From contig JABJQG010000060.1 in NCBI GenBank assembly GCA_018663505.1, positions 1 to 51,763 of the forward strand: 51,763 nucleotides of DNA, given 5' to 3'. Origin of the DNA: Pseudobdellovibrionaceae bacterium (GTDB lineage: Bacteria > Bdellovibrionota > Bdellovibrionia > Bdellovibrionales > UBA1609). This document shows, piece after piece, positions 712 to 40,485 of this stretch; within the stretch, counting starts at the first letter, position 1; each line of letters begins with the position of its first letter. The notes beneath the pieces were generated by a model. It made no database searches. It worked only from the letters and a program-made list of their open reading frames with translations, and was not told where the DNA came from. The position numbers and the translations under genes were made by a program.

Positions 712-2397
<1,686 letters not shown>

Positions 2398-2403
2398 CTA
2401 AAA

Positions 2404-20711: not shown

Positions 20712-20838
20712 AGAAAACCTCTCTGTCTTTTTAGTTGAAAAGTAGACTCTATTTTGAGCCGAGGACTCGGCTCAACTACTTTCCAATACCCCATATCTCG
20801 GATATTCTCAATCCTTTTGAAGGTGTGGGTGACTGCCA

Positions 20839-20871
20839 CCCAAATGAAAGCTTTAGCGTTAAAGTGTAAAT
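20839..20871 (+). repeat. 33-bp repeat, copy 2, abutting the left attachment core
   Basis: This is the second copy of the repeat at 18866-18898 (29/33 identical). Its last base is the T of TGGCGGAGA, so similarity between the copies stops exactly where the presumed attachment core begins. TGGGTG/CACCCA just to its left (about 20826-20842) can form a 6-bp hairpin. Confidence 0.65.
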
Positions 20872-21063
20872 GGCGGAGAAGGCCATATAGTAGAAGAACA
20901 CCTTAGTTCTGTTTTATTTGAACTTGAGGCTTATCCTGAGCCTAAAATTTTAAATTCTACTGAGCTAAGGCATCTTATGGGGACTTTCGGTACCACTGTC
21001 TCTGTGGCAAAGTTTCTTGGCTGTAGCCAGTCTCATGTTTCCAAAGGGCTACAACCTAAATAG
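20863..21063 (+). other. Start-less open frame: candidate displaced 3' end of recombinase 1
   Basis: After an in-frame TAA at 20860-20862 the frame is open for 66 codons to TAG at 21061-21063, with no credible start codon or ribosome-binding site at its head. From the core onward it reads GGEGHIVEEH..., then TELRHLMGTFGTTVSVAKFLGCSQSHVSKGL, with a helix-turn-helix-like segment (VSVAKFLGCSQSHVSKGL). The core is read as N-G-G-E, the same phase in which recombinase 1 reads its right core (K-N-G-G-E). Circularisation would therefore fuse the two into a 585-residue protein. The alternative is a 5'-truncated HTH pseudogene. Confidence 0.55.
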
Positions 21064-21073
21064 ATCTATTTTC

Positions 21074-21110
21074 TTGCAAAAAATAGTATAGTGTACTATA
21101 GTGTGTTATA
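21074..21110 (+). promoter_or_regulatory. BrnTA promoter with overlapping repeats
   Basis: TTGCAA (21074-21079) and TATAGT (21097-21102) are 17 bp apart. TATAGTGT occurs twice in direct repeat (about 21087 and 21097), and TATAGT/ACTATA form a short inverted pair across the -10. BrnA-type antitoxins repress their own promoters, so these are candidate operators. The expected transcription start, near 21109, nearly coincides with the ATG at 21110. Confidence 0.5.
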
Positions 21111-21463
21111 TGGCTCGGTTCAAGTTCGTCATATGGTTAGCTTATTGGTATATTCAGAATGAACTCTTTGAGTTTGAATGGGACCGTGGAAACCACAAAA
21201 AGAGCCAAGAAAAGCATGGTGTAAGCCCTGAGGAAGTGGAGTCCGTTTTTGACATGAAACTGGGAGTTCCCCTAGGTCAGCAGATTTCCCCCGCTGTGGA
21301 TGAAGAACGTCTTTGTATTGTTGGTCCCAACTCTGAGGGGAGAATGTTGTCTGTTGTTTTTACTTTACGAGATGGTCGAGTTCGGCCCGTGAGCGCAAGA
21401 AATGCAAGTCGCAAAGAAAGGAGGCTCTATGAAGAAGTCCGTAAAACGCTTGAAAACCTATGA
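21110..21463 (+). CDS. brnT: BrnT-family ribonuclease toxin
   Basis: BrnT toxins are small RelE-like ribonucleases that stop translation until bound by BrnA. The core FEFEWDRGNHKKSQEKHGVSPEEVESVFD, then RLCIVGPNSEGRMLSVVFTLRDGRVRPVSARNASRKERRLYEE, matches the family. Normal members begin near the FEWD motif, so the first 20 residues (ARFKFVIWLAYWYIQNEL) are an unusual extension. The GTG at 21101 lies inside the -10 box and cannot be used; the ATG at 21110 would be nearly leaderless. It overlaps brnA by 35 bp. Confidence 0.88.
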   Translation: MARFKFVIWLAYWYIQNELFEFEWDRGNHKKSQEKHGVSPEEVESVFDMKLGVPLGQQISPAVDEERLCIVGPNSEGRMLSVVFTLRDGRVRPVSARNASRKERRLYEEVRKTLENL

Positions 21464-21662
21464 TCGTATTGATTTTGATCCTAAGGAGATTATAGCCGGT
21501 ATGAAACGTCTTAAGGGGGCTCGTCGTAAGCCTACAAGTATTGCTCTTGAAGAGGATATTTTGAAGGAACTAAAGAGCCTTGCAGATAAGAAGGGGCTCC
21601 CCTACCAGGTTTTAATGCGCCTTCTTATTACGGAAGGATTGAAGCGCCTTAAAGCTTCTTAG
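21429..21662 (+). CDS. brnA: BrnA-family antitoxin (ribbon-helix-helix)
   Basis: BrnA binds and inhibits BrnT and represses the operon. AAAGGAGG before the ATG at 21429 fixes the start at MKKSVKRLKTYDRIDFDP (77 residues), although the frame is open from 21402. The C-terminal half is a ribbon-helix-helix: RKPTSIALEEDILKELKSLADKKGLPYQVLMRLLITEGLKRL. Toxin first, antitoxin second is the normal brnTA order. The pair may stabilise element 1. Confidence 0.88.
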   Translation: MKKSVKRLKTYDRIDFDPKEIIAGMKRLKGARRKPTSIALEEDILKELKSLADKKGLPYQVLMRLLITEGLKRLKAS

Positions 21663-22043
21663 AGGGGCCAAAACTAAGTAAGTAGGTTTTTCAACGCCCC
21701 CTATTGCCTTAGCATCCAGAAGCCAATTTTTCTGAATTTGGACTCGAAAGCTCGCTTTAAAATCAGAGGGCGCTCAGATGTCACTATCTCAGAGGCTAAA
21801 AATCAAAATCAGTCCATGAGTCATTTGGTTTAAATCAGGCTTGTTATAAGAATAATCCTCGAACCATAGTTGGCTCAAGACCTATTTAACTATTAGAGAT
21901 TATTGAAGTATAATCCTTTTGTGGGTTTTATCAATCTTTGCTGACTCTATTAGCTAACTCTTAGAAAAGTAAAGTATTTGGCCTTATTGGTCTAAATAAA
22001 TATAAATACTTTTAAAAAAGAAATAAGTTGTTAAAATTAAATC
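21663..22043. other. Intergenic region, no gene seen
   Basis: No convincing open frame or RNA was found in about 380 bp. The sequence becomes very AT-rich from 21880, which probably holds the promoter of the lipoprotein gene at 22044. Confidence 0.4.
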
Positions 22044-23159
22044 ATGATACCTTGTATAAAAAGTAATATTTTAAAACTGGTTATATTTATTTTAATACCT
22101 ATTGTTTTCGTTGTTAGTTGTGACAATGGAGAAGATAAAGAAAGTCCAGCTCTCTGTACAGATCAGATTTGTGAGGAAACTGCAAAGTATAACCTTTTTC
22201 TAGCAAACCTTGATGGCTCAAATATTTCAGTAATCAAAACAGATAGTTATAGAGATATGACTCACGCCAGGCTTTCCCCAGATCAACAATGGATCGCCTA
22301 TACAATATATAATAATTTAGACTCTAACAGTTGTGGTAGCCCAGCTAATGGTTATCAACAAACGGAGATTCGTGCTGTAAGCATTGATGGTTCTCAAGAC
22401 AAAAGAATCATTGCACCTGTCACAGGGGTTTTAAATTCTAATAATTATTGGTATGGCAGCTCAAATGATTTTACTTATTTATCAGGGGAACCTGGTTCCA
22501 CAAAGTTTTATAAATTAAGAGTTGATAGCTCTATGAATTTGGTTTCTGGACCTACTGAAGTCCCAGTGCCTGGAACCATTACACCCTTTGACCCAATGGC
22601 TAATTCAAATATAGATAAAATTGTTTTTGCTGGAGAGTACACTGACGTGGGATTGGTTAAGAGTATATTTTTAATGAACCTTTCGGACAGCGGAAGTGAA
22701 GTTGGACTTTCTCTTGGAAGAGACCATTCAGGGGCAACTATTTACTCTCCCAATATTTTTGAAAATGACCCTAAGATTTCTCCCGGTGGTGACAAAGTTG
22801 CCTTCATGAGGTGGGTCAATGCAGGAACAGATGGACATGGTTGGCATTTATTTGTAGTCCCTATAGCTTCTCCACTCAGTGAAGTTGATATTTCCTATTC
22901 GCATTTAGGAGCAGATATGCAACTACATGATACTTTGCCTGAGTGGATTGATAACGATACTATTGTATTTTCTTATATGAATGAGAAAACAGACGAAAGA
23001 ACACTGTATACTATGAAAGATGACGGAAGCCAAAGAACTCTAATTTCTTTGCCACCAGGTTATTTATATAGTGATGTTTATCCATTTAAAGACTCGAGTG
23101 ATCAAGTTAAGTTAATTATTTCTGTGGAAAAAATTGAAGCTCAATGTATTGCTCCCTAA
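22044..23159 (+). CDS. Lipoprotein with TolB/PD40-like beta-propeller
   Basis: This 371-residue protein has a lipoprotein signal (hydrophobic LKLVIFILIPIVFVVSC, lipid Cys26). The mature part carries several WD40-like/PD40 blades: NLFLANLDGSNISVI ... ARLSPDQQWIAYTIY, RAVSIDGSQDKRII, ISPGGDKVAFMRW, WHLFVVPI, WIDNDTIVFSYMN and LYTMKDDGSQRTLI. Such propellers usually mediate protein contacts at the periplasmic face or outer membrane. No strong ribosome-binding site precedes the ATG. It is a single gene, probably cargo of element 1. Confidence 0.75.
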   Translation: MIPCIKSNILKLVIFILIPIVFVVSCDNGEDKESPALCTDQICEETAKYNLFLANLDGSNISVIKTDSYRDMTHARLSPDQQWIAYTIYNNLDSNSCGSPANGYQQTEIRAVSIDGSQDKRIIAPVTGVLNSNNYWYGSSNDFTYLSGEPGSTKFYKLRVDSSMNLVSGPTEVPVPGTITPFDPMANSNIDKIVFAGEYTDVGLVKSIFLMNLSDSGSEVGLSLGRDHSGATIYSPNIFENDPKISPGGDKVAFMRWVNAGTDGHGWHLFVVPIASPLSEVDISYSHLGADMQLHDTLPEWIDNDTIVFSYMNEKTDERTLYTMKDDGSQRTLISLPPGYLYSDVYPFKDSSDQVKLIISVEKIEAQCIAP

Positions 23160-23358
23160 ATGAAATCGGTTTTTTACGGCCAAGTGTCCCGTCATGATGG
23201 TACACCATAAATTTAGCACCAAGGAGAAATCGAATCTGGAGTTTTTAGGGGGTCAAAATATACCACATCATCTAAATTTACTCATGATTTTTTGATAAGG
23301 ACTTGTTCAGAAACCTAGGGCCGTTTATCTGACATTAGGGGCGCATTCCAGGTTTAAA

Positions 23359-23691
23359 TTAATTTTCGCAAAATTTTCCATCAAAAGTTTGAAAATCACC
23401 ACCAAAAGTTCCTTCTAGATCTCTAGTCATACCATTTGCTATTTTTATCATTTTTTCACAGGTCATATCTTCGATCACTATTTTATTTTCTGCCACGGAT
23501 TTATGAAGTTTGGCAGCAAACGTTAGGTACATCTTATAATCCACACCATCACAATCATTTAAAATAGCAGTTGAGAGTGAGATAGAAGCAACCATAAGGT
23601 CACGTCTACAGTTTTCAGCCGATAACTGTGCTGCAAATAAATTTGACGATCCAACAAAAATTGTTACAATTACAGCTATTATGCGGGTCAT
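23359..23691 (-). CDS. Small exported four-cysteine protein
   Basis: This 110-residue protein has a signal peptide (MTRIIAVIVTIFVGSSNLFAA) and four cysteines in the mature part (AENCRRDL, LNDCDGVD, DMTCEKM, GKFCEN), which could form two disulphides. The middle looks helical (LMVASISLSTAIL, YLTFAAKLHKSVAEN). AAAAGGAG precedes the ATG. It is on the opposite strand to its neighbours. No family is recognised. Confidence 0.65.
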   Translation of the reverse strand: MTRIIAVIVTIFVGSSNLFAAQLSAENCRRDLMVASISLSTAILNDCDGVDYKMYLTFAAKLHKSVAENKIVIEDMTCEKMIKIANGMTRDLEGTFGGDFQTFDGKFCEN

Positions 23692-24116
23692 AAAGACTCC
23701 TTTTCAAAGTTATTGGTGCTTAATATATGTAGTGCAGTTATCATACCTAAAATTTCTCTAATTTATGGATCGATAGAGTGATGAGACAATGGCTTGAACA
23801 AAACCCAATGTATTGAGATCTGATTTTAGCAGGTTTCCTGTGCTTTACCCTACTTTTGTAGCAGGTCGAGCTAGATTCTGAATAATCTTTATTGTCTTTA
23901 CGAGCATAAACGACAACAAACCTGAAAGTTACTGGAACCCTTATTCTCTAAATAGAGATTTTGAGTCTCTCTTTAGGGGGCTTGTTTAAAGCCCCAAAGT
24001 CTCTTTTTTGAGATTTTGAAGCAAAAAGTAATGTGATCTTAACTCCTTAAAGCTGCCAAGCCATGTTGGCACAAAACACCTCTTTTCTTGCAGTTAATAT
24101 TAGTAAGGAGGTGATA
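23692..24116. other. Long leader region of the replication protein, with strong hairpin
   Basis: No protein gene is evident. A strong hairpin with T-run at 23961-24009 lies about 110 bp upstream of the replication gene and on its strand. Either a small RNA ends here or transcription of the replication gene is attenuated. Confidence 0.4.
23961..24009 (+). terminator. Terminator- or attenuator-like hairpin
   Basis: GGGGCTT (23977-23983) and AAGCCCC (23989-23995) form the core stem. Outer sequences GAGTCTC-type and CAAAGTCTC can extend it imperfectly, and a run of six T follows (24004-24009). Confidence 0.5.
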
Positions 24117-24839
24117 GTGAATATACAAAAAAGAGATCTAGAAATATTATTTGCTTTATCAAAATATGGGGTGTTTTCCACAGGACAAATAGGCTCAAAG
24201 TATTTTATGAATGTTGAGAGAAGCACTGTCTTACGCAGGTTAAGGATATTAAAAACGCATGGACTAATACTAAACCCATCAACACTTGAGAATGGCATGA
24301 AGGTGTGGTCGGTTTCAAAAATGGGTGCAGAGTTAATAGGGGCTGAGGTACCCTTTCGCTATTCAAACAGAAACACCGCTCTACACGATGTAACACTATC
24401 CCAACTACGCCAACATTTAGAAACACTTATTACTGCTAAAAACTGGGTGAGTGATATGCAGTTTAGGAGAAAGCTTGCTCAGACTGGAGAACTTGATTCC
24501 ACTGTACCAGACGGAATGTTTAATACAGATATATTTCAAGAACCAACACGCGTAGCTCTAGAGCTTGAGCTACATCCAAAAGCTCATCAAAGATACAAAA
24601 AAGTATTTTATGATTACAAATTTCACCGAGAAGTTACGTATATCTTTTATGTAGTGAAACATTTTTCCATACTAAAACCTGTGTTTAAAATTTGGGGAAA
24701 TAATGTTTTGCGTGAAGGAAGGTTTTATAAGCAACGTATCATTGGGGTTGTATTTCAAGACCTATTAGAGCATGGGCTTGAGGCAAAAATTCACTGGCCA
24801 AACGGTTTGTCAGCACCACTTAAAAAATTATTTAACTAG
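24117..24839 (+). CDS. Replic_Relax-type replication-relaxation protein
   Basis: This protein resembles the Replic_Relax (PF13814) family of plasmid and integrative-element proteins linked to replication or mobilisation. An N-terminal winged helix (RDLEILFALSKYGVFSTGQIGSKYF ... STVLRRLRILKTHGLI) is followed by the family's hydrophobic-acidic core (WVSDMQFRRKLAQ ... VPDGMF ... VALELELHPKAHQRYKKVFYDYK ... YIFYVV). The frame opens at 24063, but AGGAGGTGAT immediately before a GTG at 24117 is a near-perfect ribosome-binding site and sets the start (240 residues). It probably serves replication or transfer of element 1. Confidence 0.75.
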   Translation: MNIQKRDLEILFALSKYGVFSTGQIGSKYFMNVERSTVLRRLRILKTHGLILNPSTLENGMKVWSVSKMGAELIGAEVPFRYSNRNTALHDVTLSQLRQHLETLITAKNWVSDMQFRRKLAQTGELDSTVPDGMFNTDIFQEPTRVALELELHPKAHQRYKKVFYDYKFHREVTYIFYVVKHFSILKPVFKIWGNNVLREGRFYKQRIIGVVFQDLLEHGLEAKIHWPNGLSAPLKKLFN

Positions 24840-25174
24840 GCAAATAGTTGCCCAGGGCAGAAGTAAAATTTTGCCCACCCCCAGAGCATTTAATCCCCCC
24901 TATAATTTCCCTAATTCAACTTAAAAACTTAAAGTAATTCCTAGCAGATAACCCGGCTCTGTCTCACTCAAAGATAATGTCCTTAAGTTCTCGACCACTC
25001 CCCACAAACATGTGTGAAGTGGTCGAGAACTACAGACAAGATCAGGAGAAAGAAAGAGCCTAGAAATGGGTGGTAGAAAAAAATAATGAGGGAGGGGAAG
25101 GAGTGAAAGTGAAGGCAAAACAGAGGTGGTAAGAAAAATAAAGAGTTAAATAAATAAAAAAAGGAAGTAGTAAT
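24840..25174. other. Non-coding region upstream of recombinase 1: inverted repeat and purine-rich tract
   Basis: A 14-bp perfect inverted repeat (24986-24999 and 25018-25031) is followed by about 130 bp in which the top strand is almost wholly purine (25037-25165). No convincing gene is present. Confidence 0.45.
24986..25031. repeat. 14-bp perfect inverted repeat
   Basis: AGTTCTCGACCACT (24986-24999) is exactly complementary to 25018-25031 with an 18-bp centre that itself contains CACA/TGTG. It lies about 145-190 bp upstream of the small gene that leads recombinase 1. It may be a regulator or accessory recombination site. Confidence 0.6.
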
Positions 25175-25309
25175 ATGGAAGAGAAAGTAGAAATTACTCC
25201 TATTGCGATCCCTGAAATCCACTATAATCGCTATATCGCAAATTTAATTGAACAGTTGTTGTTAATTGATGAAAAATTGTTTAAAGAAAAACCAGAGGTG
25301 AGCAAATGA
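25175..25309 (+). CDS. Small protein translationally coupled to recombinase 1
   Basis: This is a 44-residue frame: AGGAAG ribosome-binding site, ATG at 25175, MEEKVEITPIAIPEIHYNRYIANLIEQLLLIDEKLF, ending at TGA 25307-25309. Its stop overlaps the ATG of the recombinase (ATGA), a typical coupling arrangement. The second half looks like an amphipathic helix. Small proteins encoded with large serine recombinases sometimes act as recombination directionality factors; that role is only a guess here. Confidence 0.6.
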   Translation: MEEKVEITPIAIPEIHYNRYIANLIEQLLLIDEKLFKEKPEVSK

Positions 25310-27135
25310 AACGCATTGGTTTGTATATTAGAGTTAGCACCGAGGAGCAGGCCAGAGTGCAAGATGGTTCTTTGGTGTCACAACGTAAACGCCTTGAGGA
25401 ATATGTTGAGGGGCAAAATAGGCATGACCCTGATTGGGGTTTAATCACTGATATCTATGTTGATGAGGGGCGTTCAGCTAAAGACATGAATCGACCGGAG
25501 TTTCAACGGCTATTGACAGATGTACGTTTAGGTAAAGTGAATCTTGTTTTATCCACAGAGCTTTCTAGAATGTCTCGTTCAATCCGAGATTTTTGTGAAA
25601 TCTGGGATTTATTTAAAAAGCACGATACTAATTTTATTACTTTGCGTGAGCAATTTGACACAACTACTGCTGCGGGTGAAATGATGGTGTTTAACCTCAT
25701 TAACTTTGCGCAATTTGAAAGAAAACAAACTGGTGAAAGAATTGCTGCTAATTTTAAATCACGCGCCGAACGTGGGCTTTGGAATGGTGGGCAGGTGCCT
25801 TTAGGTTACCAGCGTGACTCAGAAAGCCCTGGTAAACTTCTGGTCCATAAAACTGAAAGTAAGCTTGTTAAACTTATTTTTAAACAGTTTTTAAAAACAG
25901 GTAATCTACGTGAAACTTGTGTTTACTTAAATAAATTGGGTATGAGATCCAAAAAGTACAAAAATAAAAAAGGTGAAATTAAGGGCGGTAATCATTTCAC
26001 TGTGCAAAGCCTTCATCATCTTTTAGTAAACTCAACATTTATAGGCATAAGAGAGGTCAATAAAAAGCGTGGTGATTTAAGGCAAGTCAAAGCTAACTGG
26101 CCAGCTATTGTTGATAAAACAACCTTTAATGCCGTTCAGAGAAAACTTAAAAGCAATAAACAAAAATTTAAGCCAGATAGCTGGAAAACTTACCCATATC
26201 CACTAACGGGACTTGCCGTCTGCGGTGAGTGTGGAGGTTCACTTAATGGAAAATCAGCCCATGGCAAAACAAAGAAGCATTACTATTACGATCACCCCAG
26301 AATGTTAAGAGCCGATGGCAAGGGCCATAAGCACAAATGTCGTATTCAGCGAATAAGAGCCCCTAGAGGTGAGGAGTTGGTAATGAAGTCACTAAAAGCT
26401 ATCCTCTCAGATCCAAACAAGATTAATGAGGCCGTAGCTATTTACCACAAGGACCAGGTTAAAAACCAACCTCTGGTGATTCATGGGCTTAAAACCACAA
26501 CAGATGAACTGAAATCCCTTGAGAAAAAACAGCAAAATCTAATCGATCGAATAGCAGAGCTTCCAATGAAGATCTCAGCAGCCCCTTTTTATAAGCAGCT
26601 AGAAGGTTTACAGGCACAGATTTCTGAAAAGCTACGGCTCAAAGAAGAACTCCTTAACCAGTCGACCAAAGAAAATAACATTCGAGTGCTACCCAGTGAA
26701 TTAACGGCCAGAATCCAGAGAACTGTGAATGCATTAGAAAAAACGCCACTGAAAGACCAACGTAAAATTATTGAAAATGTGATCCAGTTCGCAGAGTTTC
26801 ACCCCACACGCTTGAGGTTGGGCGTTTATGCTTCAGAAAAATCTACCAGGAGTTCGACTACTATCAAAAATGGCGGAGAGAGGTGCGCAACCTTCGAACC
26901 GCTAGCATTGCCTGGGCAGCATGATAACGGCCTATTTCTACTGAAGAATTTGGGAAGTAGAAAGTGCACTTTCTACTTCCATTCCACTTCCATTCCACTT
27001 CCATTCCACTTCCCACCTAGTGATATTCTACTTCCTAAATTGAATTTTAGTAAACTTTTCAACAGAAGCCGCTATATCTGTTTTTGGTCCTTATTTTGCT
27101 GTATATTCATCAAACTGATATTTAGTTTAAATTAG
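25306..27135 (+). CDS. Large serine recombinase 1, frame runs through the attachment core
   Basis: This is a site-specific DNA integrase/excisionase. The resolvase domain starts at once (MKRIGLYIRVSTEEQ, catalytic Ser11; LSRMSRSIRDF; EQFDTTTAAGEMM). The recombinase domain follows (RGLWNGGQVPLGYQRD ... LRETCVYLNKLG), then a zinc ribbon near residues 305-345 (CGECGGSL ... HKHKC) and a coiled coil. At codon 522 it enters TGGCGGAGAG (26871-26880). The remaining 87 residues come from beyond the core, look unlike a recombinase and pass through a 28-bp palindrome and tandem repeats. In the excised circle the tail would come from 20872-21063 instead. Confidence 0.9.
   Translation: MKRIGLYIRVSTEEQARVQDGSLVSQRKRLEEYVEGQNRHDPDWGLITDIYVDEGRSAKDMNRPEFQRLLTDVRLGKVNLVLSTELSRMSRSIRDFCEIWDLFKKHDTNFITLREQFDTTTAAGEMMVFNLINFAQFERKQTGERIAANFKSRAERGLWNGGQVPLGYQRDSESPGKLLVHKTESKLVKLIFKQFLKTGNLRETCVYLNKLGMRSKKYKNKKGEIKGGNHFTVQSLHHLLVNSTFIGIREVNKKRGDLRQVKANWPAIVDKTTFNAVQRKLKSNKQKFKPDSWKTYPYPLTGLAVCGECGGSLNGKSAHGKTKKHYYYDHPRMLRADGKGHKHKCRIQRIRAPRGEELVMKSLKAILSDPNKINEAVAIYHKDQVKNQPLVIHGLKTTTDELKSLEKKQQNLIDRIAELPMKISAAPFYKQLEGLQAQISEKLRLKEELLNQSTKENNIRVLPSELTARIQRTVNALEKTPLKDQRKIIENVIQFAEFHPTRLRLGVYASEKSTRSSTTIKNGGERCATFEPLALPGQHDNGLFLLKNLGSRKCTFYFHSTSIPLPFHFPPSDILLPKLNFSKLFNRSRYICFWSLFCCIFIKLIFSLN
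26871..26880. repeat. Attachment core between elements 1 and 2
   Basis: TGGCGGAGAG here and at 42040-42049 is the complement of the 3' end of tRNA-Ser with CCA. The 18 bp ending here (26863-26880) match 42032-42049 at 17 positions. The shorter TGGCGGAGA recurs at 20871. Confidence 0.6.
26953..26980. repeat. 28-bp perfect palindrome
   Basis: GGAAGTAGAAAGTG followed directly by its reverse complement (26967-26980). It lies about 75 bp inside the left end of element 2 and is followed immediately by tandem repeats. Confidence 0.8.
26981..27013. repeat. 11-bp tandem repeat, three copies
   Basis: ATTCCACTTCC occurs three times exactly, head to tail (26981, 26992, 27003). A related CTACTTCC lies further right near 27031 and at the end of the palindrome. 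Confidence 0.85.
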
Positions 27136-27152
27136 ATAATACAGGAGCTGTT

Positions 27153-27959
27153 ATGCAAATTTTAAAAACAATAATTGTCCTCAGTGCTGTAGTTCTTACA
27201 GTAAATGCTTGCAGCTCCAAGAGCGATTCAGACAAGTCCGTTAGAGACGCAAACAGGTCGATTGATGAGTCTAAGAAGAAAGCCGATGATGCCGTAAAAG
27301 AAGCTGAGAAGGCTGGGCAAGCAACAAAGGATATTACAGCTAGCGGTGGTCAGCCTGGCTCTATAGCTATTTCAGGCGAGATTGTTAAAGATGAAAGTAA
27401 AGCTATAGATGGCTTAGACCCTAGAGTTTTTTTAGACGTTGCTACTGGCAAAGGGTGGCGAGGATCAAATCCTGTATTAACAGCTAGCATTATTTTAAAA
27501 GGAAGTTTAGCGCTAGAGCAGAAAAAACAGCTTAATGAATTAAAACTTGGCCAATTTCTGAATTTTGGATGTGACCTTTCAAATAATCAAGTTAATGGAT
27601 TAACAGAGAAGCCCCTGGAACCATTAGTTGTTACAGGCAGCACTTCGGTACAGATTGTATCTGCTGAAAACATATTCGTCTGTGATGCAAGTCTATTACA
27701 AGGTCAGTTTTTAAGTTTGGTCTCGAAACGCCTTTTTCTTTCAAGTATGCAGATTGTGATTACTGGACTGGGGCAATTATCAGTAATAGCAGAGTCACTT
27801 TCATTAGAAGGGCAAAACTTAATTAAACTTGAGGGTGAAGATGGCAGTGCAACACTATTGTCAGGACCAAGTCTAAATATGAATGTAAAAAAATTAACTG
27901 GAACAGGTAATCTTAAAATAAACTCCAATGGATCTAACTATGTTGAGAAGGTAAACTAA
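27153..27959 (+). CDS. Lipoprotein with coiled-coil N-terminus and beta-rich C-terminus
   Basis: This 268-residue protein has a lipoprotein signal (LKTIIVLSAVVLTVNAC, lipid Cys20). Residues 21-65 form a charged Ala/Lys/Glu/Asp coiled coil (SVRDANRSIDESKKKADDAVKEAEKAGQA). The rest is beta-rich and Leu/Gly/Ser-rich (VTGSTSVQIVSAENIFVCDASLLQG, ITGLGQLSVIAESLSLEGQ), resembling a short beta-solenoid. CAGGAG precedes the ATG. Its stop overlaps the next start (TAATG), so it is the first gene of a three-gene operon with an exported serine protease. It could be an envelope anchor or target for that protease; this is inference. Confidence 0.7.
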   Translation: MQILKTIIVLSAVVLTVNACSSKSDSDKSVRDANRSIDESKKKADDAVKEAEKAGQATKDITASGGQPGSIAISGEIVKDESKAIDGLDPRVFLDVATGKGWRGSNPVLTASIILKGSLALEQKKQLNELKLGQFLNFGCDLSNNQVNGLTEKPLEPLVVTGSTSVQIVSAENIFVCDASLLQGQFLSLVSKRLFLSSMQIVITGLGQLSVIAESLSLEGQNLIKLEGEDGSATLLSGPSLNMNVKKLTGTGNLKINSNGSNYVEKVN

Positions 27960-29380
27960 TGTCGAAGCTAACATTACTAATCGCCCTTGGAATTATTTCG
28001 ATCAATGCAAAGGCAAGTGTAACGGACTATTTAGAGAAAGCTGTCTTAATTGAAGAGATTACTTCTGATGGTACTGTTAAAAATAGATTCTTAGACTATA
28101 TGACGAAGTCTGACGATGAGAAGAGCTTCTTCTCTTATGCTCCAGATATTTCTTCCTTTTCTTGGTTTGGAGCATGTTTAAAAGAAGATAGTTCTCCTTG
28201 TAAAAGACTTGTTCAAAGCAAAAAAGAGTTTGAAAGAGCCTTTTCTTTGAGTAATGGTAGAAAGGAAGCTGACCCCTCTATGGGACTACCGCCAATGCAG
28301 GATTTTCCAGTTGCAACAACAACTAGTATCATCAAAGAAGAGAAAAATGAACTTCATTTAAAAATTGAGCAAAACATCATGGGTAATTCAATGATTGGTT
28401 TTTTCAAAGTAAAAAAAGTGCCAATGTTAAGCGATCTTAAAATGAATTTTTCAATTCCTGAAAAAGATGAACCAAATAGAGTTGATATAAGTAGTGTTGA
28501 AGACAACTTGAAACAATTAGCATTATCAGTTGTGATGCTTCAATCAAATGGTGACATGGAGAACCTTTTAGGCGGAAATAGTGTTGGGCATGGCACAGGG
28601 TTTTTTATCTCTGAGGATGGCTTATTACTAACTAATTATCATGTAATTGATGATTTTAAAATTTGTATCCAAAAATTGATTTGTGAAGTGGAGTTTAAAC
28701 AAACTTTACCTGACAACTCGAAAAGAGGCTTCAACGCCGTTGTAAAAGTTTTGGCTTCAAGCCAGCCACATGATTTTGTCTTACTTAAAGTTGATCTTCC
28801 AGCTAATCTTAAATTCTCATACCTAAAACTAGAAAAGGGTGTTGTTGGCCCAAATTTAGTTACTCTTGGATATCCAGGAGACATTACTGAAGAAATTGAA
28901 GATGAGAAAAGCAGGGCGAGATTAACATATAGCTTTGGAAAACTGGTATCATTTCACTCCAGAACCTACGCTACAAGTGCCTACATATACCAAGGAGCAA
29001 GTGGGAGTCCAATACTTAACCCAAATACCCTTTCGGTTGTAGGGTTACTGTCCAATGGAGCTGGCACACCTAAGCGTGGTATAGGATCTCCAGGACTGGC
29101 TAGACCCATTCATTTGATAGACCTTGAGTTCGGTCTTTCAGATTATATATCTGGAGCTAAACAGCAAAGAGTTAAGGGGCTTATTTCTAAAATCCAAACA
29201 ACAAGAAATATTTCGATTGCTAAAGGTTTATTAGAGGATTACAGGTTGGAAAAAACTTATCTTGGATTGAAATCCGTTAAAAATTTAATGATTAACCATT
29301 CTTCAAACGGTATTCGTTTGGAAATCATGAAGATTTTAGAAACTATGGGTTTTTTGGTGGGGTCATCTGATGGGCAGTAA
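27959..29380 (+). CDS. Exported trypsin-like (S1/S6-type) serine protease
   Basis: This 473-residue protein has a signal peptide (MSKLTLLIALGIISINAKA). A 190-residue N-terminal domain of unknown type precedes a trypsin-like domain with an intact triad: His in GHGTGFFISEDGLLLTNYHV (about residue 227), Asp in PHDFVLLKVD (about 270) and Ser in YQGASGSPIL (about 348). This is like the Do/HtrA and V8 families but without a PDZ domain. The C-terminal 80 residues are helical. It overlaps the lipoprotein gene (TAATG) and the following small gene by 11 bp. The coupled trio suggests one function at the envelope. Confidence 0.8.
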   Translation: MSKLTLLIALGIISINAKASVTDYLEKAVLIEEITSDGTVKNRFLDYMTKSDDEKSFFSYAPDISSFSWFGACLKEDSSPCKRLVQSKKEFERAFSLSNGRKEADPSMGLPPMQDFPVATTTSIIKEEKNELHLKIEQNIMGNSMIGFFKVKKVPMLSDLKMNFSIPEKDEPNRVDISSVEDNLKQLALSVVMLQSNGDMENLLGGNSVGHGTGFFISEDGLLLTNYHVIDDFKICIQKLICEVEFKQTLPDNSKRGFNAVVKVLASSQPHDFVLLKVDLPANLKFSYLKLEKGVVGPNLVTLGYPGDITEEIEDEKSRARLTYSFGKLVSFHSRTYATSAYIYQGASGSPILNPNTLSVVGLLSNGAGTPKRGIGSPGLARPIHLIDLEFGLSDYISGAKQQRVKGLISKIQTTRNISIAKGLLEDYRLEKTYLGLKSVKNLMINHSSNGIRLEIMKILETMGFLVGSSDGQ

Positions 29381-29627
29381 TGTGGATTATTGGGATAAGT
29401 ACAACGATGTACAAAAGAAAATATCATTGCTAGCTGATTCTCTTGGAGTTACAGAAGTTTACTTGAGAAAAAATGCTAAGAATTTTGACCTGCTTATTAG
29501 ACTACAGGTACAACGTCTCTTAAGAGATAAACTAGCTATACTTGAAACAATACGCAGTTCAGGTCTGGCGGCTATGGCCTCTAAACCTATTGTTAATATT
29601 AATTCTTATCGACAGCTTTCGGGCTAA
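29370..29627 (+). CDS. Small cytoplasmic protein coupled to the serine protease
   Basis: This 85-residue protein has no signal peptide. It is helical throughout (DVQKKISLLADSLGVTEVYLRKN, FDLLIRLQVQRLLRDKLAILETIRSSGLAAMAS). The start lies inside the protease gene (11-bp overlap), indicating coupling, and its last 29 bp overlap the end of the convergent HD-domain gene. The phrase DSLGVTEVYLRKNAKNF could be a short helix-turn-helix, but this is weak. No family is recognised. Confidence 0.6.
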   Translation: MGSNVDYWDKYNDVQKKISLLADSLGVTEVYLRKNAKNFDLLIRLQVQRLLRDKLAILETIRSSGLAAMASKPIVNINSYRQLSG

Positions 29628-31062
29628 TAGCTTCATCGTTTTCACTTAAATTTTCTAGATCCTGCTTTGTTTCTTGAATCATATCAACAATGGCAGCACG
29701 GCTAACCTCTTCATAGATTTTATCTACAACATCCTTAAATTTTGGATGATAGAAGATTCTTCGTACTGAAAACGATCCATTATAGTGAGCTATCAAGTCT
29801 GATATTGATTTCATATTATCTGAGACAAGCTTTTTCCTTACAAAGGATTTACAAATAATTGGGAAATCCAGTAGAGAAGGCTTTTTTATTGCTTTTTCAC
29901 TCGTGTATATTGCATAGAAGCCATCATCAATAGATTTTTTAAATTTATTTTCAATGACTTGCTCCAAACTCTTATCATTACCAAAACTTTCAAAGCCCAA
30001 ATACCAGAGTTTTCTCTCTCGAATCACTTCGATTAATTCTTTTGGAACATTATCTTGATGTATAAAACTCTCATCATCTACCAATAAATACTTATCGACG
30101 TTAGGGGGTAACTCATATGGCTTTTCTTCCCTGCTACATAGAACATCAAATATTTTATTGCAATTCGCATCTGTCCTATGACTATAAACTTGAACGTGCA
30201 TTTGATACCTAGAAAATAAAAAGTCTTCAAAAGCTGACAAGGATTTTCTCATAATTCCAAATTGATAAAACCCTTTGCTTTGGTGTTTAACAATACAAAG
30301 CCCATCTCTAAGGCGGTTAAGGTCATACTTTCCATAAGGAACACCACAGAAATGGCTATCCCTTAATAGGTAATCCATTCTATCAGAATCAAGTTCCCCA
30401 TCAACTAACAATCTCAATAAAGACACTGTAGTTTTACTAAAAGACTCTGGTACTTCGACATGTTCATATTTAAGAGCTGAAACAAGTTGAATTTCATTTT
30501 TTGTCCATTTTAAATCTCTTAAAATTTTATCCATTATTAATAACGAATAGTCCTCATGATCTGCCTTTGTTTTTTTCTTTTTCTTAAGGTTGTGCTTTTT
30601 CTTATTTCTCAAAGCCTCAATTACAAAATTTGAAGAACCTTCTTTGTTTTCCTCAACAAGTTTATCAATTTCGGGCATTACAGACTCGGAAGCATGTGAA
30701 AATGGCCCATGACCCACGTCGTGGAGTAGTGCCGCAATGGCTACATAGTCTTGTAATGGAGATAGAATATCTTCTAGTTCTTGCTCATTTAATAAGATAA
30801 ATTCGGAGTTTTCTAGACATCCTTGATTTTTCATACGCACTTCTTCATGCACTTTTTTGATAGAGTTTATCAATAGCTTTGCTATATGATAAGCCCCAAT
30901 CGAGTGTTCAAACCTAGAATGCTTGGCTCCTGGAAATACTCTATCCAAAAAGCCCAAGGCCTTCACTCTTCGTAGGCGCTGAAACCCAGGGTGATTTATA
31001 ACCGCTTTAGCTTTTTCACAAATTTTAATTGTCCCATGAATAGGATCATGTATTACTTGCAT
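29599..31062 (-). CDS. HD-domain dNTP triphosphohydrolase-like protein (SAMHD1/YwfO-type)
   Basis: This 487-residue protein carries the metal-binding HD pattern of deoxynucleotide triphosphohydrolases: IHDPIHGTI, FQRLRRVKALGF, PGAKHSRFEHSIGAYHIA (H48, H53), LLHDVGHGPFSH (H114-D115) and the later LLVDGELDSDRMDYLLRDSHFCGVPYG. Relatives hydrolyse dNTPs, and in both bacteria and animals some restrict viruses by draining dNTP pools. A Lys-rich insert (KKKHNLKKKKKTKADHED) follows the HD site. It is convergent with the protease operon, overlapping it by 29 bp. A defence role inside element 2 is plausible but inferred. Confidence 0.85.
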   Translation of the reverse strand: MQVIHDPIHGTIKICEKAKAVINHPGFQRLRRVKALGFLDRVFPGAKHSRFEHSIGAYHIAKLLINSIKKVHEEVRMKNQGCLENSEFILLNEQELEDILSPLQDYVAIAALLHDVGHGPFSHASESVMPEIDKLVEENKEGSSNFVIEALRNKKKHNLKKKKKTKADHEDYSLLIMDKILRDLKWTKNEIQLVSALKYEHVEVPESFSKTTVSLLRLLVDGELDSDRMDYLLRDSHFCGVPYGKYDLNRLRDGLCIVKHQSKGFYQFGIMRKSLSAFEDFLFSRYQMHVQVYSHRTDANCNKIFDVLCSREEKPYELPPNVDKYLLVDDESFIHQDNVPKELIEVIRERKLWYLGFESFGNDKSLEQVIENKFKKSIDDGFYAIYTSEKAIKKPSLLDFPIICKSFVRKKLVSDNMKSISDLIAHYNGSFSVRRIFYHPKFKDVVDKIYEEVSRAAIVDMIQETKQDLENLSENDEAISPKAVDKN

Positions 31063-31257
31063 TCAGTTTCCTCATAACAGTTAGTTACTATAAGTATTCT
31101 AGTCGGTAATTTAACGATAATTCTGAACTGCTATAGACCGTAGTTTGATCCAGTTTTAAAATAGTAATCTTTAAATATGTACGAACTAAAGCCACAGTTT
31201 GCAGTCTCAATTGCACTGCCATGGGTTGTTGTGATTGTTTTAATCTCAGGAGGATTA

Positions 31258-31713
31258 ATGAGTAATAAAAATGAAGATCTAGAGTTTAACCTAGCCAAAC
31301 ATATAGCTGCTAGCTTCCCAGGAAAAGGGCCGTTTTTTTTAGCTAATACTGCGAATGCAAAGCTCAATTCAGTAACAAGCAATAAATCGCATGGTAGCTC
31401 AAAACAGCCTTTATCATCTAAACCTACAGCAACCACACCAACAGCTAGTAAAACACCAGAGAAGATCAGTATAGGCGCTAAGATTACATCCCAGAGCCAC
31501 AGTAAGCCCTTCAGACCGACAACTCCTAGTAGTAAGGGCTTTTCCAAAGAAGCAAGAAGCAAAGACCACCAGCACAGCAGTGTGGCAAACTATGAAAAAA
31601 GGGTTAGAGATAAAGTGGATCAGATGCAAGGTGAAACAACCACTAAGGGTAAGGATAAACAGCAGGGCCTAGCTCAAAAAGTTGGCTACAAAATGCCAGA
31701 GCCAAAAGTATAA
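31258..31713 (+). CDS. Disordered Ser/Thr/Lys-rich small protein
   Basis: The frame opens at 31177, but CAGGAGGATTA directly before the ATG at 31258 is a far better start (151 residues). The first 35 residues look folded (NEDLEFNLAKHIAASFPGKGPFF). The rest is low-complexity, rich in Ser, Thr, Lys and Pro (ATTPTASKTPEKIS, TTKGKDKQQGLAQ), with a predicted charge strongly positive. No family is recognised. It is divergent from the HD gene. Confidence 0.55.
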   Translation: MSNKNEDLEFNLAKHIAASFPGKGPFFLANTANAKLNSVTSNKSHGSSKQPLSSKPTATTPTASKTPEKISIGAKITSQSHSKPFRPTTPSSKGFSKEARSKDHQHSSVANYEKRVRDKVDQMQGETTTKGKDKQQGLAQKVGYKMPEPKV

Positions 31714-31714
31714 C

Positions 31715-31785
31715 TTACTGGCTCCACTGCACAATGACCAATAACTTGGGTTTTTCTCATAAAAGATTAAAGCTGGAGCCAGTAA
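31715..31785. repeat. 12-bp inverted repeat
   Basis: TTACTGGCTCCA (31715-31726) is exactly complementary to 31774-31785, 47 bp apart, just after the disordered protein gene. It may help end transcription; no T-tract. Confidence 0.45.
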
Positions 31786-31931
31786 ATATGCTGGGAGCCA
31801 CTGTTAGAGCGTGTTTTGAGTAAGTTTTCTTATGGACCCACTAATGGGAAAAGCACAAAAAAGCCTATTTTTGAGCCTCGAAAGCCCGATGGCGTTCACA
31901 TTAAAAAATATTTTTATCATTATCTTTCATA

Positions 31932-32417
31932 CTAGGCAGATAGAACTTCTTTTTTAGCAGACAAAAATTCATCATCAGTCAAAGCACCATTTTTTTTCAG
32001 TTCAGTAAGTTCTTTTAACTGAGTAGCTTTAGAATCACCTTTTAAAGTACCAGAGCTGGGCAACTCTTTAGCAGCTCTCTCGATTGCCTTTTTTACTTTG
32101 GAACTGCCCATCAGGTAGTAAATAGGTATGAAGACTAAGAGTAAAAAACCAGAAAGAACCGTAAGTGCCGCAAAGATCCATATTAAAGCACTTGCTTTCG
32201 TATAGGCAGAGATTTTGTACCCACTTCCAGCTTCTTCAATTAAAATCTTCATCTTAAAACCGAGGTGGGAAAAATCCTTGAAATTAGTTGCTTGAAGTGA
32301 TGCTCCCATTTGCTCTTGAAGAGCTTTAGTTAGTAAATCAAGTGTCTCAGGATTTTTACTACAATGAACTGTTTTTACAAAAAACTCTTTAAAGCCGTTC
32401 TCGATTTTATCTTCCAT
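31932..32417 (-). CDS. Membrane protein with C-terminal SHOCT motif
   Basis: This 161-residue protein has an N-terminal alpha/beta part, two hydrophobic stretches at about 77-106 (SALIWIFAALTVLSGFLLLVFIPIYYLM) forming a hairpin or one long helix, and a C-terminal SHOCT motif (QLKELTELKKNGALTDDEFLSAKKEVL). SHOCT occurs at the ends of many small membrane proteins and probably mediates oligomerisation. It is downstream of a lipoprotein gene on the same strand, 24 bp away, so likely co-transcribed. Confidence 0.75.
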   Translation of the reverse strand: MEDKIENGFKEFFVKTVHCSKNPETLDLLTKALQEQMGASLQATNFKDFSHLGFKMKILIEEAGSGYKISAYTKASALIWIFAALTVLSGFLLLVFIPIYYLMGSSKVKKAIERAAKELPSSGTLKGDSKATQLKELTELKKNGALTDDEFLSAKKEVLSA

Positions 32418-32441
32418 ATATTTTTTCTCCGTTTAGATATA

Positions 32442-33527
32442 TTAATTTTGGGTAAAACTATAATTCCCATCAGAATCATAGCAAACTTCTCCATCTATAA
32501 ATGCTGTTGAGCCATCGCCAAGCACGATTTCTTTTTCTGCGGAGTAACAAACCAGCGGTAGTTGATTATTGCTAGCAGATGCTACGTCAGGCATGAAGGG
32601 CCTTTCTCCACGAATATATTCACGCCAAGACCTACCAATATATAGGGGCTCATCAAATATCGAATTCACTAAATACTTCCATTTTCCACCAGCTTGTACA
32701 TAGCCCCAAGTACCAACTTCTGTATTTGATGAGGTTGTAGCATCCCACATGTTATTAAACTCATTCTCTGTAATCTTAATGAAGTTCATTTCGCTTCTGA
32801 TTAAAATTGCAGCGGCACTGAGTTGTTCTTGAGTTGCAACATCGGGAGCTGGCGGATAGAACGCTTCATTCCCATTTTTGAGATAATCACATACTCCCCA
32901 TGGGGTATTTATTGGACACCAAGTCCAATCCACACCTGAATTGTCATCCATCTTTGTTAGTAGTAGGTCATTGCCAACATCTGTATAATTATAGATTTCC
33001 ATTGGGTGGAAGATGCTTGATGAGCTGGCCAGTTCAACATCGAATAAAAGCATGGCTCCGTAGTCAGTAGGGTTTACTGGCTCGGCTTCAATATCTGTCC
33101 TTAAATAATAGCAAAATACCTGCCGATTGTAAGACAGACTTCCATCTTCCAATTCACCGATAATTAACCTTCGTGCCTCACCTTTAGAGGCATCAAGCTC
33201 AACAAAAATTTTGTCATTCCTATAAGCGTAATATTGATTGCTGGATCGTAACCACATGGACAATAAGTCAGTCTGTGGCTCACAAGTAACACTATCTTCA
33301 AATCTATCAATAAGTGATTTCTCCCACTGTGTAAGGTCTTTGTTCTCGGTCACACATGCTTTCATGCCTGAATGGTAGTATTCGATGAATCGTTTTCTTA
33401 CTAATCCATCAGAGTCCCTTTCTGTCCACTCGCCTTTACAGACTTTTGAATCTGTAGATGCTTCCCTCTGTTGTTCTAGGCAGGATGTCGTACAGAGAAA
33501 CGTGAATAATAAAACGTACTGTTTCAT
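32442..33527 (-). CDS. Lipoprotein, unknown function
   Basis: The frame is open from 33731, but GGAGAG before the ATG at 33527 and the lipoprotein signal that follows (MKQYVLLFTFLCTTSC, lipid Cys16) set the start, giving 361 residues. The mature protein has several cysteines and is rich in aromatic and acidic residues (DWTWCPINTPWGVCDYL, GTWGYVQAGGKWKYL, CYDSDGNYSF). No family is recognised. It is divergent from an XRE regulator with inverted repeats between them. Confidence 0.65.
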   Translation of the reverse strand: MKQYVLLFTFLCTTSCLEQQREASTDSKVCKGEWTERDSDGLVRKRFIEYYHSGMKACVTENKDLTQWEKSLIDRFEDSVTCEPQTDLLSMWLRSSNQYYAYRNDKIFVELDASKGEARRLIIGELEDGSLSYNRQVFCYYLRTDIEAEPVNPTDYGAMLLFDVELASSSSIFHPMEIYNYTDVGNDLLLTKMDDNSGVDWTWCPINTPWGVCDYLKNGNEAFYPPAPDVATQEQLSAAAILIRSEMNFIKITENEFNNMWDATTSSNTEVGTWGYVQAGGKWKYLVNSIFDEPLYIGRSWREYIRGERPFMPDVASASNNQLPLVCYSAEKEIVLGDGSTAFIDGEVCYDSDGNYSFTQN

Positions 33528-33648
33528 GCACTCTCCATTTATTGTAAGTACCTCAATTAGTATCAAAAAAGGTCGTTGGTATTTAGCTTCAAGCATTTGA
33601 ACACCTAGACCTATAAACAGGCTTATCGGTAATAAATTAAATAACTTT

Positions 33649-33696
33649 ACCATATATGGTGGTAGCGCAGATGGTATTTTCACCACCATATGTGGT
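33649..33696. promoter_or_regulatory. Pair of ACCATAT-type inverted repeats (candidate operators)
   Basis: ACCATATATGGTGGT (33649-33663) and ACCACCATATGTGGT (33682-33696) are imperfect mirror images (13/15), each followed by a GCGC. They lie just upstream of the XRE gene and are well placed for autoregulation. Confidence 0.5.
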
Positions 33697-33730
33697 GCGC
33701 ATTGAATTCCCATTATCAGACACTTAAACA

Positions 33731-33955
33731 ATGACTGATAAGCAAAGGTTTTTAAAAAAGTTGGGGAAGCATATTGCTAAAGTGAGAAAATCAAAGGGCT
33801 ATTCTCAGGACAGAGTTTTCTTAGAAACTGAAGGTTTTTCTAGATCCACTGTCTCCCGCATTGAGAAGGGTCAAGTTAATCCTGAAGTTTGGACTCTTGC
33901 CCGAATAGCAACAACGCTAGGTATATCATTAAGTAAATTATTGGATATTGATTGA
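33731..33955 (+). CDS. Small XRE-family transcriptional regulator
   Basis: This 74-residue protein is essentially one Cro/CI helix-turn-helix domain: LGKHIAKVRKSKGYSQDRVFLETEGFSRSTVSRIEKGQVNPEVWTLARIATTLGISLSKLLDI. It probably represses itself and the divergent lipoprotein through the inverted repeats just upstream. No strong ribosome-binding site is visible. Its position between cargo and replication module fits a control gene of element 2. Confidence 0.85.
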   Translation: MTDKQRFLKKLGKHIAKVRKSKGYSQDRVFLETEGFSRSTVSRIEKGQVNPEVWTLARIATTLGISLSKLLDID

Positions 33956-33970
33956 ATCTCAAAGAGCGGC

Positions 33971-34150
33971 TTATTGAGCTATGTAGCTTTTGATCATTTC
34001 TTCTAATACTGCTGTAGCTGTTTTCCCATCTTTTTTACATTCCTCTTTAAATTTTTCCAATAAAGCTGTCTCAAACCGAAACGTATGGTTTCTTCGCTTA
34101 AGTTCTTTCTTGTTTAATTCTTTAATAATTTGTTTTCTATTTACCTTCAT
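33971..34150 (-). CDS. Small ribbon-helix-helix-like protein
   Basis: This is a 59-residue frame on the minus strand from ATG 34150 to TAA 33971. After a basic head (MKVNRKQIIKELNKKELKRRN) it has a beta strand HTFRFE and two helices (TALLEKFKEECKKDG, TATAVLEEMIKSYI) separated by GKT, the pattern of CopG/Arc-type DNA-binding dimers or plasmid partition/copy-control proteins. Its ribosome-binding site is weak. It is convergent with the XRE gene, its stop lying 15 bp beyond. Confidence 0.65.
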   Translation of the reverse strand: MKVNRKQIIKELNKKELKRRNHTFRFETALLEKFKEECKKDGKTATAVLEEMIKSYIAQ

Positions 34151-34450
34151 CTTAAAAAACCACCATAAGTATATAGTTGATTATGACTTATCTTAATATA
34201 ATACGGCCCCTTATGCAAGTGCAATTTGCACTTGCATTTAGTAATGCAAAGTGTTATTCTGGCTTTAGAACTGATTGCGAAATCAATGCAAGCCCAGGAG
34301 ACAAGAATGCAAGAGCAAGTAAACACAAAGCTAGTTTGGCTGAAGAACTAAATGAAATTATTTATAAACGAAAACATCTTGCGGCGTAACAGTCGATTTT
34401 TGAATTTCGCAGAATCTCTATAGATAGCGAGGTAATAAGGAGCTATTGGT
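34151..34450. other. Region between the RHH gene and tyrosine recombinase; possible short frames
   Basis: Besides the 25-bp palindrome, two very short frames are visible: CAGGAGACAAG then ATG at 34307 (14 codons), overlapping an alternative frame ending at 34389 (ASLAEELNEIIYKRKHLAA). Neither can be claimed as a gene. Confidence 0.35.
34213..34237. promoter_or_regulatory. 25-bp palindrome upstream of the tyrosine recombinase
   Basis: ATGCAAGTGCAA (34213-34224), a central T, then TTGCACTTGCAT (34226-34237): perfect symmetry. It lies between the divergent ribbon-helix-helix gene and the recombinase/helicase operon, where a regulator site is expected. Confidence 0.55.
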
Positions 34451-35191
34451 ATGAAAAAGGCTGATTCTAGTGTGGTAAACATGGGGAATTTCGGTGTCAA
34501 CAAAGACCAACGAAACTCACCCTTACAATCGCTAATCAAGTACATTGTTAGAGAAACTAATCGTAACAAATTTAGCTATAGCCAGCTCCGCTATGCTTTC
34601 AGGTGTGCTCGCCAAAACTGTGGCGTTGAAACCCCAGGTCAAAAAACAAAAAAGCTCTATCAACTACCCAGTACAGATGAAATCAAGCAATTCTTTGATG
34701 TAATTGAAAATCCTGTACACCGCCTAATATTTTCTGTTTTAGCTGACTCTGGATTACGAATTGAGGAACTTTGTTCACTAGAAGTAAGACGAATAGATTT
34801 TAAAACCAATATTATATTTGTTAATGATGGCAAAGGAGGGAAGGATCGCTGTACGGTAATCGGCAATAAGACACTAGAGAAAATAAAGCTCTACCTGCAA
34901 GGGAAGAATAATAGATACTTATTTGAAAGCAGGTACAACAGTAGGTACTCTACACGGCGGCTACAGCAGATGTGTAAGGTGTACAAAGAAAAGGCTGGCA
35001 TTGAAGCCTCTCTAACCCCACATACATTTAGACATCTGCTGATGACCAAGCTAGCCCACGCAGGAATATCAAAAGAAAAACGAATGATTATCGCTGGTCA
35101 CTCATCTGAGAAGACTCAAGATATCTATACTCACCTCGGAATGGGCGGCATAAAAGATGAAGTGATAGCTATTCTAGATGGCGGAGTGTAA
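34451..35191 (+). CDS. Tyrosine recombinase (phage-integrase family)
   Basis: This 246-residue recombinase has the complete catalytic set: R103 (SGLRIEELCSLEV), K131 (DGKGGKDR), H191-x2-R194 (TPHTFRHLLMTKLAHAG), H217 (AGHSS) and nucleophile Y226 (DIYTHLG). The N-terminal SAM-like DNA-binding domain is short (about 65 residues). AAGGAG precedes the ATG. It lies 5 bp upstream of the helicase gene, so it leads the replication operon. Because the element already has a serine recombinase at its end, this enzyme may resolve dimers or catalyse a separate rearrangement (inference). Confidence 0.9.
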   Translation: MKKADSSVVNMGNFGVNKDQRNSPLQSLIKYIVRETNRNKFSYSQLRYAFRCARQNCGVETPGQKTKKLYQLPSTDEIKQFFDVIENPVHRLIFSVLADSGLRIEELCSLEVRRIDFKTNIIFVNDGKGGKDRCTVIGNKTLEKIKLYLQGKNNRYLFESRYNSRYSTRRLQQMCKVYKEKAGIEASLTPHTFRHLLMTKLAHAGISKEKRMIIAGHSSEKTQDIYTHLGMGGIKDEVIAILDGGV

Positions 35192-35196
35192 GAGAT

Positions 35197-36273: not shown

Positions 36274-36356
36274 AAATAGCCGTTACAAAGGCTGATCCAG
36301 GTAATGGCTCCTATAATAGTAATCTTTAAATTATCCACCCTAACTAAGGAGCATAT

Positions 36357-36626
36357 ATGGGATTCTGGGATGATGATGATAAACCTTTTGTAATAGATAC
36401 TGATTTAGAGGAGTTGCCACAGGAACTTAGAAAATCTGGTGCCAAGATCTTGAACTTTCTTGGTTCTAGAAATAGAGGCTTAACCAAAAAACAAATCACT
36501 AGTTTGTGTAAGATTAGAAAACAAACTTCTTCTAAAGCTATCTTAGAGCTAAACCGTATCAAGAGATTAAAAAAATCTGGCAAAGGAGTTCGTTCAAAGC
36601 CATTTATATATTCTATTGAAGCTTAG
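36357..36626 (+). CDS. Small winged-helix protein A
   Basis: This 89-residue protein has an acidic head (MGFWDDDDKPFVIDTDLEELP) then a winged helix: GAKILNFLGSRNRGLTKKQITSLCKIRKQTSSKAILELNRIKRLKKSGKGVRSKPFIYSI. The wing sequence K-S-G-K-G-V-R-S-K-P-F-I-Y is closely echoed by K-N-G-A-G-V-K-S-D-P-Y-R-Y in the gene at 39717, so the two are paralogs. AAGGAG precedes the ATG. Probably DNA-binding within the replication module. Confidence 0.7.
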   Translation: MGFWDDDDKPFVIDTDLEELPQELRKSGAKILNFLGSRNRGLTKKQITSLCKIRKQTSSKAILELNRIKRLKKSGKGVRSKPFIYSIEA

Positions 36627-37058
36627 TCTTACGGTCTGCCAACCATGCCAAGGAAATGAATACTTATATAGTTATTGGATTACTCTTTAAAGTGTAATTA
36701 CACATTACAGAAACACCTGCTTTTTGCTGGCTTGGCTGACATGGATTAACAAATCTTTTAAATAATATATTGAAGAAGAATTTCTATTTTGTGGTATATC
36801 TTTATATGTCACCACAGCAAATAAAAATTCATTATCTCTTCCAGATTCAAGCCAAGTTCGACCCTTGTGCTACTGATATTTTTCATCTGACAAAAAAATA
36901 CATGTTTTTTCATTTTTTTTACTCCAATTATTTCAGGCACTTACAGGCTCCGCTTTTGTATTTTAGAATGATTTCAGCTGGTTATGATAGTCGAGTAATC
37001 CAAGCCCAGAATAACAATCATTTAAGTAAAGGCAGCAATGCACATTTTAGGAGGATAT
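36627..37058. other. AT-rich non-coding region; candidate origin of element 2
   Basis: No credible gene is present. A frame at 36770-37066 is low-quality, rich in Phe/Tyr/His, and lacks a ribosome-binding site. A 12-bp perfect palindrome GTGTAATTACAC lies at 36692-36703 with ATTAC nearby, and A/T runs dominate 36870-36930. Position before the primase-helicase operon suits an origin; that is inference. Confidence 0.35.
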
Positions 37059-40378: not shown

Positions 40379-40406
40379 TATATTGCATTTACATAGAGAA
40401 AGATGC

Positions 40407-40439: not shown

Positions 40440-40485
40440 CCAAAATAATTAGCCAACGACAGATAAATTTAGTAAAGGAAACGAT

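Follow-up and report, generated by a model that had tools for sequence, protein, structure and literature searches.

A small mobile element of a Pseudobdellovibrionaceae bacterium appears to split its own recombinase gene when it integrates. The DNA analysed was a stretch of 51,763 nucleotides, here called the window. We conclude that its element 1 is very probably an integrative element with attP inside its own large serine recombinase (LSR) gene, which would encode a 585-residue protein in the circular state and would have its helix-turn-helix (HTH) end displaced by integration. Since attP would lie inside the integrase gene, insertion beside a tRNA gene would sever the DNA-binding tail from the enzyme. 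The split, the phase of its two parts, the dyad, the target, the conservation of the tail and the existence of joined genes are all established as far as comparison of sequences can establish them. On the same grounds, the claim that the self-splitting recombinase is a conserved, family-wide trait of these small mobile elements from bacteria related to Bdellovibrio largely holds.

Two elements in tandem at a tRNA-Ser gene

The core TGGCGGAGA occurs three times in the window, at 20871, 26871 and 42040, against a chance expectation of 0.13 per window (stranded features lie on the plus strand unless stated otherwise). The third copy is the 3' end of a tRNA-Ser(TGA) gene on the minus strand, the integration target (42040-42129, found with ARAGORN), adjoined by a seryl-tRNA synthetase gene named from its sequence (42332-43636). 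The left core, attL of element 1 (20871-20879), has 12 bp in common with 26868-26879, a repeat that includes the core between elements 1 and 2 (26871-26879). To its left, the flank at 20802-20870 would formerly have lain downstream of a tRNA-Ser: positions 20802-20879 share 78% identity with the sequence that follows tRNA-Ser(GGA) on contig 1 of this genome, and the match ends at the core. The gene of recombinase 2 (40486-42153), the recombinase of element 2, spans the third core and ends inside the antisense tRNA-Ser. From the core copies, the tRNA-Ser, the recombinase 3' ends and the identity of the flank, we read the order left flank, element 1 (20871-26871, 6.0 kb), element 2 (26871-42040) and tRNA as a tandem array at a single tRNA-Ser. 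A junction of element 1 with the chromosome at 26871 was considered and rejected; 26871-42040 is a second element and tRNA-Ser(TGA) lies at 42040-42129.

A recombinase gene split between the ends of element 1

Recombinase 1 (25306-27135) has 609 residues. Its body (25306-26870) is that of an LSR, with the Pfam domains Resolvase, Recombinase and Zn_ribbon_recom and with matches to the TP901-1 and A118 integrases in a profile search against the PDB. A structure model of modest quality (mean pLDDT 64) has long helices at residues 389-458 and is ordered to about residue 508, with low confidence beyond. The domain set of an LSR, i.e. a Resolvase catalytic domain, a Recombinase domain and a zinc ribbon with a coiled coil, is thus complete.

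At the other end of the element, the frame at 20872-21063 offers no usable start codon close to where it begins, and it closes with TAG at 21061-21063. The original prediction saw in it the displaced 3' end of recombinase 1, and its coordinates for the recombinase, the left frame and the cores all check out. Upon recomputation the distances from ATG to core and from core to stop are indeed both multiples of three, and crossover in the core would join the two parts into an ORF of 585 codons with one terminal stop, the single protein that excision had been expected to yield. In the integrated state the gene would end instead with a substitute (26872-27135) that is disordered and of low confidence in the model and has no similarity in relatives. 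This 87-residue tail had been described as foreign sequence. It is foreign to the gene, but, given an array at one tRNA-Ser, it comes from the left end of the neighbouring element 2 and not from the chromosome.

The window alone is weak evidence for this arrangement, because 11.6% of random 63-codon frames in it are also open. Once related elements are compared, the split goes far beyond chance, as judged from the existence of a tail family, a phase that agrees in every one of 14 elements and the attP dyad that appears on joining.

Related elements share phase and targets

In close relatives, similarity to recombinase 1 ends at residues 517-520, i.e. at the crossover. Homologues that ended before codon 522 would have spoken against the split; those we found keep the frame through the core. 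The 3' ends of related recombinase genes run into the opposite-strand 3' ends of tRNA-Leu, -Ser, -Ala, -Met, -Gln, -Pro or tmRNA genes, and 18 of 21 enter the antisense RNA gene in the same phase. Many tRNA-Leu genes offer in that phase a T-loop TGA stop six codons past the core. The body and tail frames are in phase in the 11 elements with both ends present and also in L172, L045 and L051. This makes 14 of 14 among elements of the recombinase 1 group with both ends in the DNA examined, for a chance probability of about 2e-7. The ends of an element share a run of at least 6 nt in every pair, always covering positions 4-5. Two more genomes from the genus of G073 have empty sites: there the flank to the left of the G073 element adjoins tRNA-Ser(GGA) without a break at the predicted junction.

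These comparisons have their limits. Searches for the left cores of distant relatives by exact repeats (9-mers or longer) gave mostly chance matches, because the shared core may be just 6 nt, and we used searches with the tail and the arm instead. For most of the distant recombinases of the group (29-45% identity) no tail was detected in the DNA examined. Neither a circular junction nor a free plasmid form came to light. No close relative was found in plasmid and phage collections, nor any relative of recombinase 1 in viral contigs, and many of the relatives are metagenome-assembled genomes. In elements of the tRNA-Leu type, e.g. L115, L121 and L123, crossover is inferred to occur at the dinucleotide GC, a palindrome that would not alone fix the orientation of insertion.

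The rejoined DNA has the layout of a serine-recombinase attP

Joining the two parts brings together the P arm (AGTTCGACTACT, 26851-26862) and the P' arm (AGTAGAAGAACA, 20889-20900) in a 50-bp dyad, which is missing from the attL, attR and attB arrangements. In joined sites, sequences like GGTTCGANTACT stand at -20 to -9 and sequences like AGTAGACGAACC at +18 to +29, with the centre between core positions 4 and 5; of 21 related genes, 15 have GTTCG where the P arm lies. The outer 12 positions of the dyad are complementary at 7-10 positions in all 11 joined sites versus 1-7 in attL, attR and attB, while random pairs reached at least 9 in only 16 of 20,000 cases. The CGAAC of the tRNA T-loop is closer to the centre than that of attP, by 5 bp. 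For the A118/LI integrase, the ZD motif occupies positions 16-24 in attP and lies 5 bp closer in attB (PMC3783163), a rule that the half-site positions of the joined sites fit. The comparison with attB concerns the tRNA-side half only, the opposite half-site being variable. Within this scope the test for an LSR attP is met: a dyad of about 50 bp with the ZD motif, and an attB motif 5 bp closer. By the domain and attP tests together, both of which rest on sequence, the recombinase of element 1 belongs to the large serine recombinases. The in-phase joins and the dyad also bear out the proposal that attP would lie within the recombinase gene and that integration would swap its 3' end.

The case for element 2 is less clear. 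Its recombinase is of a different LSR type and reads the core in a different phase from recombinase 1. A candidate for its displaced 3' end lies at the left end of the element (26871-26924, WRREVRNLRTASIAWAA followed by a stop). This rests on likeness to L113, where a recombinase of the second type is out of phase with a tail of the first type; a left end of the second type was found nearby, beside a remnant of the first type, and its frame WCALLDEFRTAVLDCA resembles WRREVRNLRTASIAWAA. Joining the ends of this type of element gave no clear dyad, so the claim of self-splitting is weaker for element 2.

Naturally occurring joined genes

Scanning for the pattern of unsplit attP sites led to a joined gene in G303. 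Its contig 38 has a complete ORF of 636 residues that runs from an ATG to a stop codon. The ORF contains recombinase domains and an unbroken attP dyad, and its HTH tail belongs to a second type, unlike that of the window. It is part of a tandem array (L222/L223, 4090-15888) in which the recombinase of element A reads into the left end of element B, whose tail completes the recombinase body. Bdellovibrio sp. LF-bin-57 (L039) has two fusions, one of an internally deleted recombinase with the tail type of the window, the other of a once-frameshifted body of the recombinase 1 type with a type B tail. The latter combination indicates that tails are exchangeable between elements. Type B tails are in phase with their own recombinases in L045 and L051, and a decayed joined gene is found in L117. 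One further match to the joined profile, in G305, looked like a fusion and on inspection was not fused.

The displaced end is conserved as a protein

Among 141 genomes of the order, a search with the tail gave matches in 36 at E<=1, the weakest of which are due to chance. When 369 genomes of the phylum were searched with a joined profile of tail and body, 41 had one or the other; across the phylum, tails also occur without their recombinase at the left ends of elements. The tail alignment is too diverse for use in scanning. Indels within the family are codon-sized, and beyond the attP arm close pairs with estimable dS have dN/dS between 0.11 and 0.36. The predicted helix-turn-helix character of this end found support in an AlphaFold model, a three-helix HTH confident across residues 30-61. 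There is no accepted Pfam family for it, with only weak matches to YdaS and HTH_50, and a fold search of the PDB gave nothing significant (best E 0.34). At locus L109 (G026:C21:47800-67700), a span of about 5 kb (821-5852) contains at least four orphan tails, i.e. left ends; they are a graveyard of earlier insertions at a single site.

These patterns of substitution place the tail under purifying selection at the protein level. Such selection on a frame that lacks a start in the integrated state speaks for a joined protein whose use is frequent enough to maintain it. What the tail does for the enzyme is less evident. The split and the joining could be real and the two forms of the protein behave alike, trimming near the gene end being tolerated rather than used. 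This is a possibility we take seriously without quite expecting it to be right, for all known LSR domains precede the crossover and the model has low confidence past residue 508; against it, selection preserves a tail that is not translated while the element is integrated.

Granted that the split is real, it is very unlikely, in our view, that the tail counts merely as DNA, with a P' half-site that has to adjoin the gene and an open frame that is incidental. The DNA of the tail is indeed best conserved in its first 10 codons, which overlap the P' arm. Yet past the arm substitutions fall mostly at third codon positions, 350 of 351 pairs have pN below pS, stops abound in the two remaining frames and the translation is modelled as an HTH. 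Integrated copies show tails alone at left ends, which might suggest a separate small HTH gene whose phase with the core is coincidental. We find this scarcely credible. The tails lack a conserved start codon, their frame begins exactly at the core, the 14 of 14 agreement in phase would be expected by chance about 2e-7 of the time, and joined ORFs exist. Nor is there any sign of another partner: fusion of the tail to an unrelated protein would have told against the original prediction, and what lies upstream is either unrelated flank or a recombinase, with no other conserved protein. Chance association of short repeats with an unrelated open frame, conceivable in the window given a core of merely 9-12 bp and the 11.6% of frames that are open, is refuted at the family level by the same architecture in 14 elements, the attP dyad, the empty site and the tRNA target.

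Proposed mechanism

We return to the reading that element 1 splits and rejoins its own LSR gene. Its attP would be situated in the linker that connects the recombinase domains to the C-terminal HTH domain, and the circular form would carry one gene for one protein of 585 residues. Crossover with the tRNA 3' end would take place at two bases, positions 4-5 of TGG(C/T)G(N), leaving a 521-codon body at the right end of the element and, at its left end, the 3' part of the gene that codes for the HTH. The integrated gene would continue into the antisense tRNA or, in arrays, into the next element, and its product would keep the catalytic, recombinase, zinc-ribbon and coiled-coil regions and lose the HTH. 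A full-length gene would be rebuilt when the element is excised or when a second one inserts in tandem.

That recombinase 1 catalyses attP x attB recombination is inferred, with support from the apparent empty sites in relatives. We also infer that the full-length enzyme is the one at work while the element is circular or incoming, and that DNA binding, regulation or the direction of recombination changes once the HTH is lost. The split is plausible as a switch on enzyme form, in which the integrated form would retain all known recombinase domains. One might go further and speculate that removal of the HTH by integration sets direction or silences recombination, and that tandem insertion restores full length and swaps tails. 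We hold this only tentatively and rather doubt it as a whole. Tail swapping, if true, would amount to a combinatorial rewiring of specificity or regulation.

Relation to known systems

According to a 2021 review of archaeal recombinases, self-splitting integrases are exclusive to archaea and of the tyrosine class (PMC8371274). In these "suicidal" integrases of the SSV1 type, as would be the case here, attP lies in the integrase gene, which is divided between the two ends of the element by insertion at a tRNA gene and made whole again by excision (PMC8371274). Yet the family of element 1 is of the serine class, in bacterial hosts, and does not meet the criterion of a Phage_integr_3 tyrosine recombinase. 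Moreover, the archaeal enzymes are cut into inactive halves, whereas element 1 and its relatives would lose only the C-terminal HTH and keep the LSR domains in one ORF, from which activity is inferred. We found no description of integrase self-splitting for serine recombinases in the open-access literature. With A118/LI, TP901-1, phiC31 and Bxb1 the group of recombinase 1 shares the domain order, the PDB profile matches, the 50-bp dyad attP and the 5-bp shorter attB half-site, but it differs from them by having attP in the gene, an extra C-terminal HTH and a tRNA 3' end as target.

In the integration-dependent immunity of the mycobacteriophage BPs and its relatives, attP lies in a coding gene, so that integration alters the C-terminus of a protein (PMC4557955). 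There the split gene encodes a repressor and the lost end is a degradation tag; here they are an integrase and an HTH domain. As the split gene is a recombinase, the criterion of attP inside a repressor gene is not met, and we take the repressor switch as a parallel in logic, i.e. an analogy. Both forms of the element 1 protein exist in sequence; a functional difference between them is inferred.

The element 1 family would thus be the bacterial serine-recombinase counterpart of the archaeal integrases, with a cut that seems to fall between domains and an enzyme trimmed rather than destroyed. It provides a natural pair of full-length and trimmed forms for probing what sets LSR behaviour, and suggests a route by which LSRs adopted the tRNA T-loop as attB motif. 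It also gives a rule for recognising the left ends of islands: an orphan start-less HTH frame that starts at a tRNA 3'-end repeat.

Genes next to the split recombinase

A toxin-antitoxin pair resembling BrnT/BrnA (21101-21662) begins less than 50 bp past the stop codon of the tail; in the circle it would sit directly 3' of the full-length recombinase gene. On the other side, the gene 5' of the recombinase (24063-24839) is Replic_Relax-like, slightly under the Pfam cut-off, and may have a role in replication or mobilisation of the circular form. Genes of comparable length and position 5' of the recombinase are found in L005, L006 and L222 (8655-9491).
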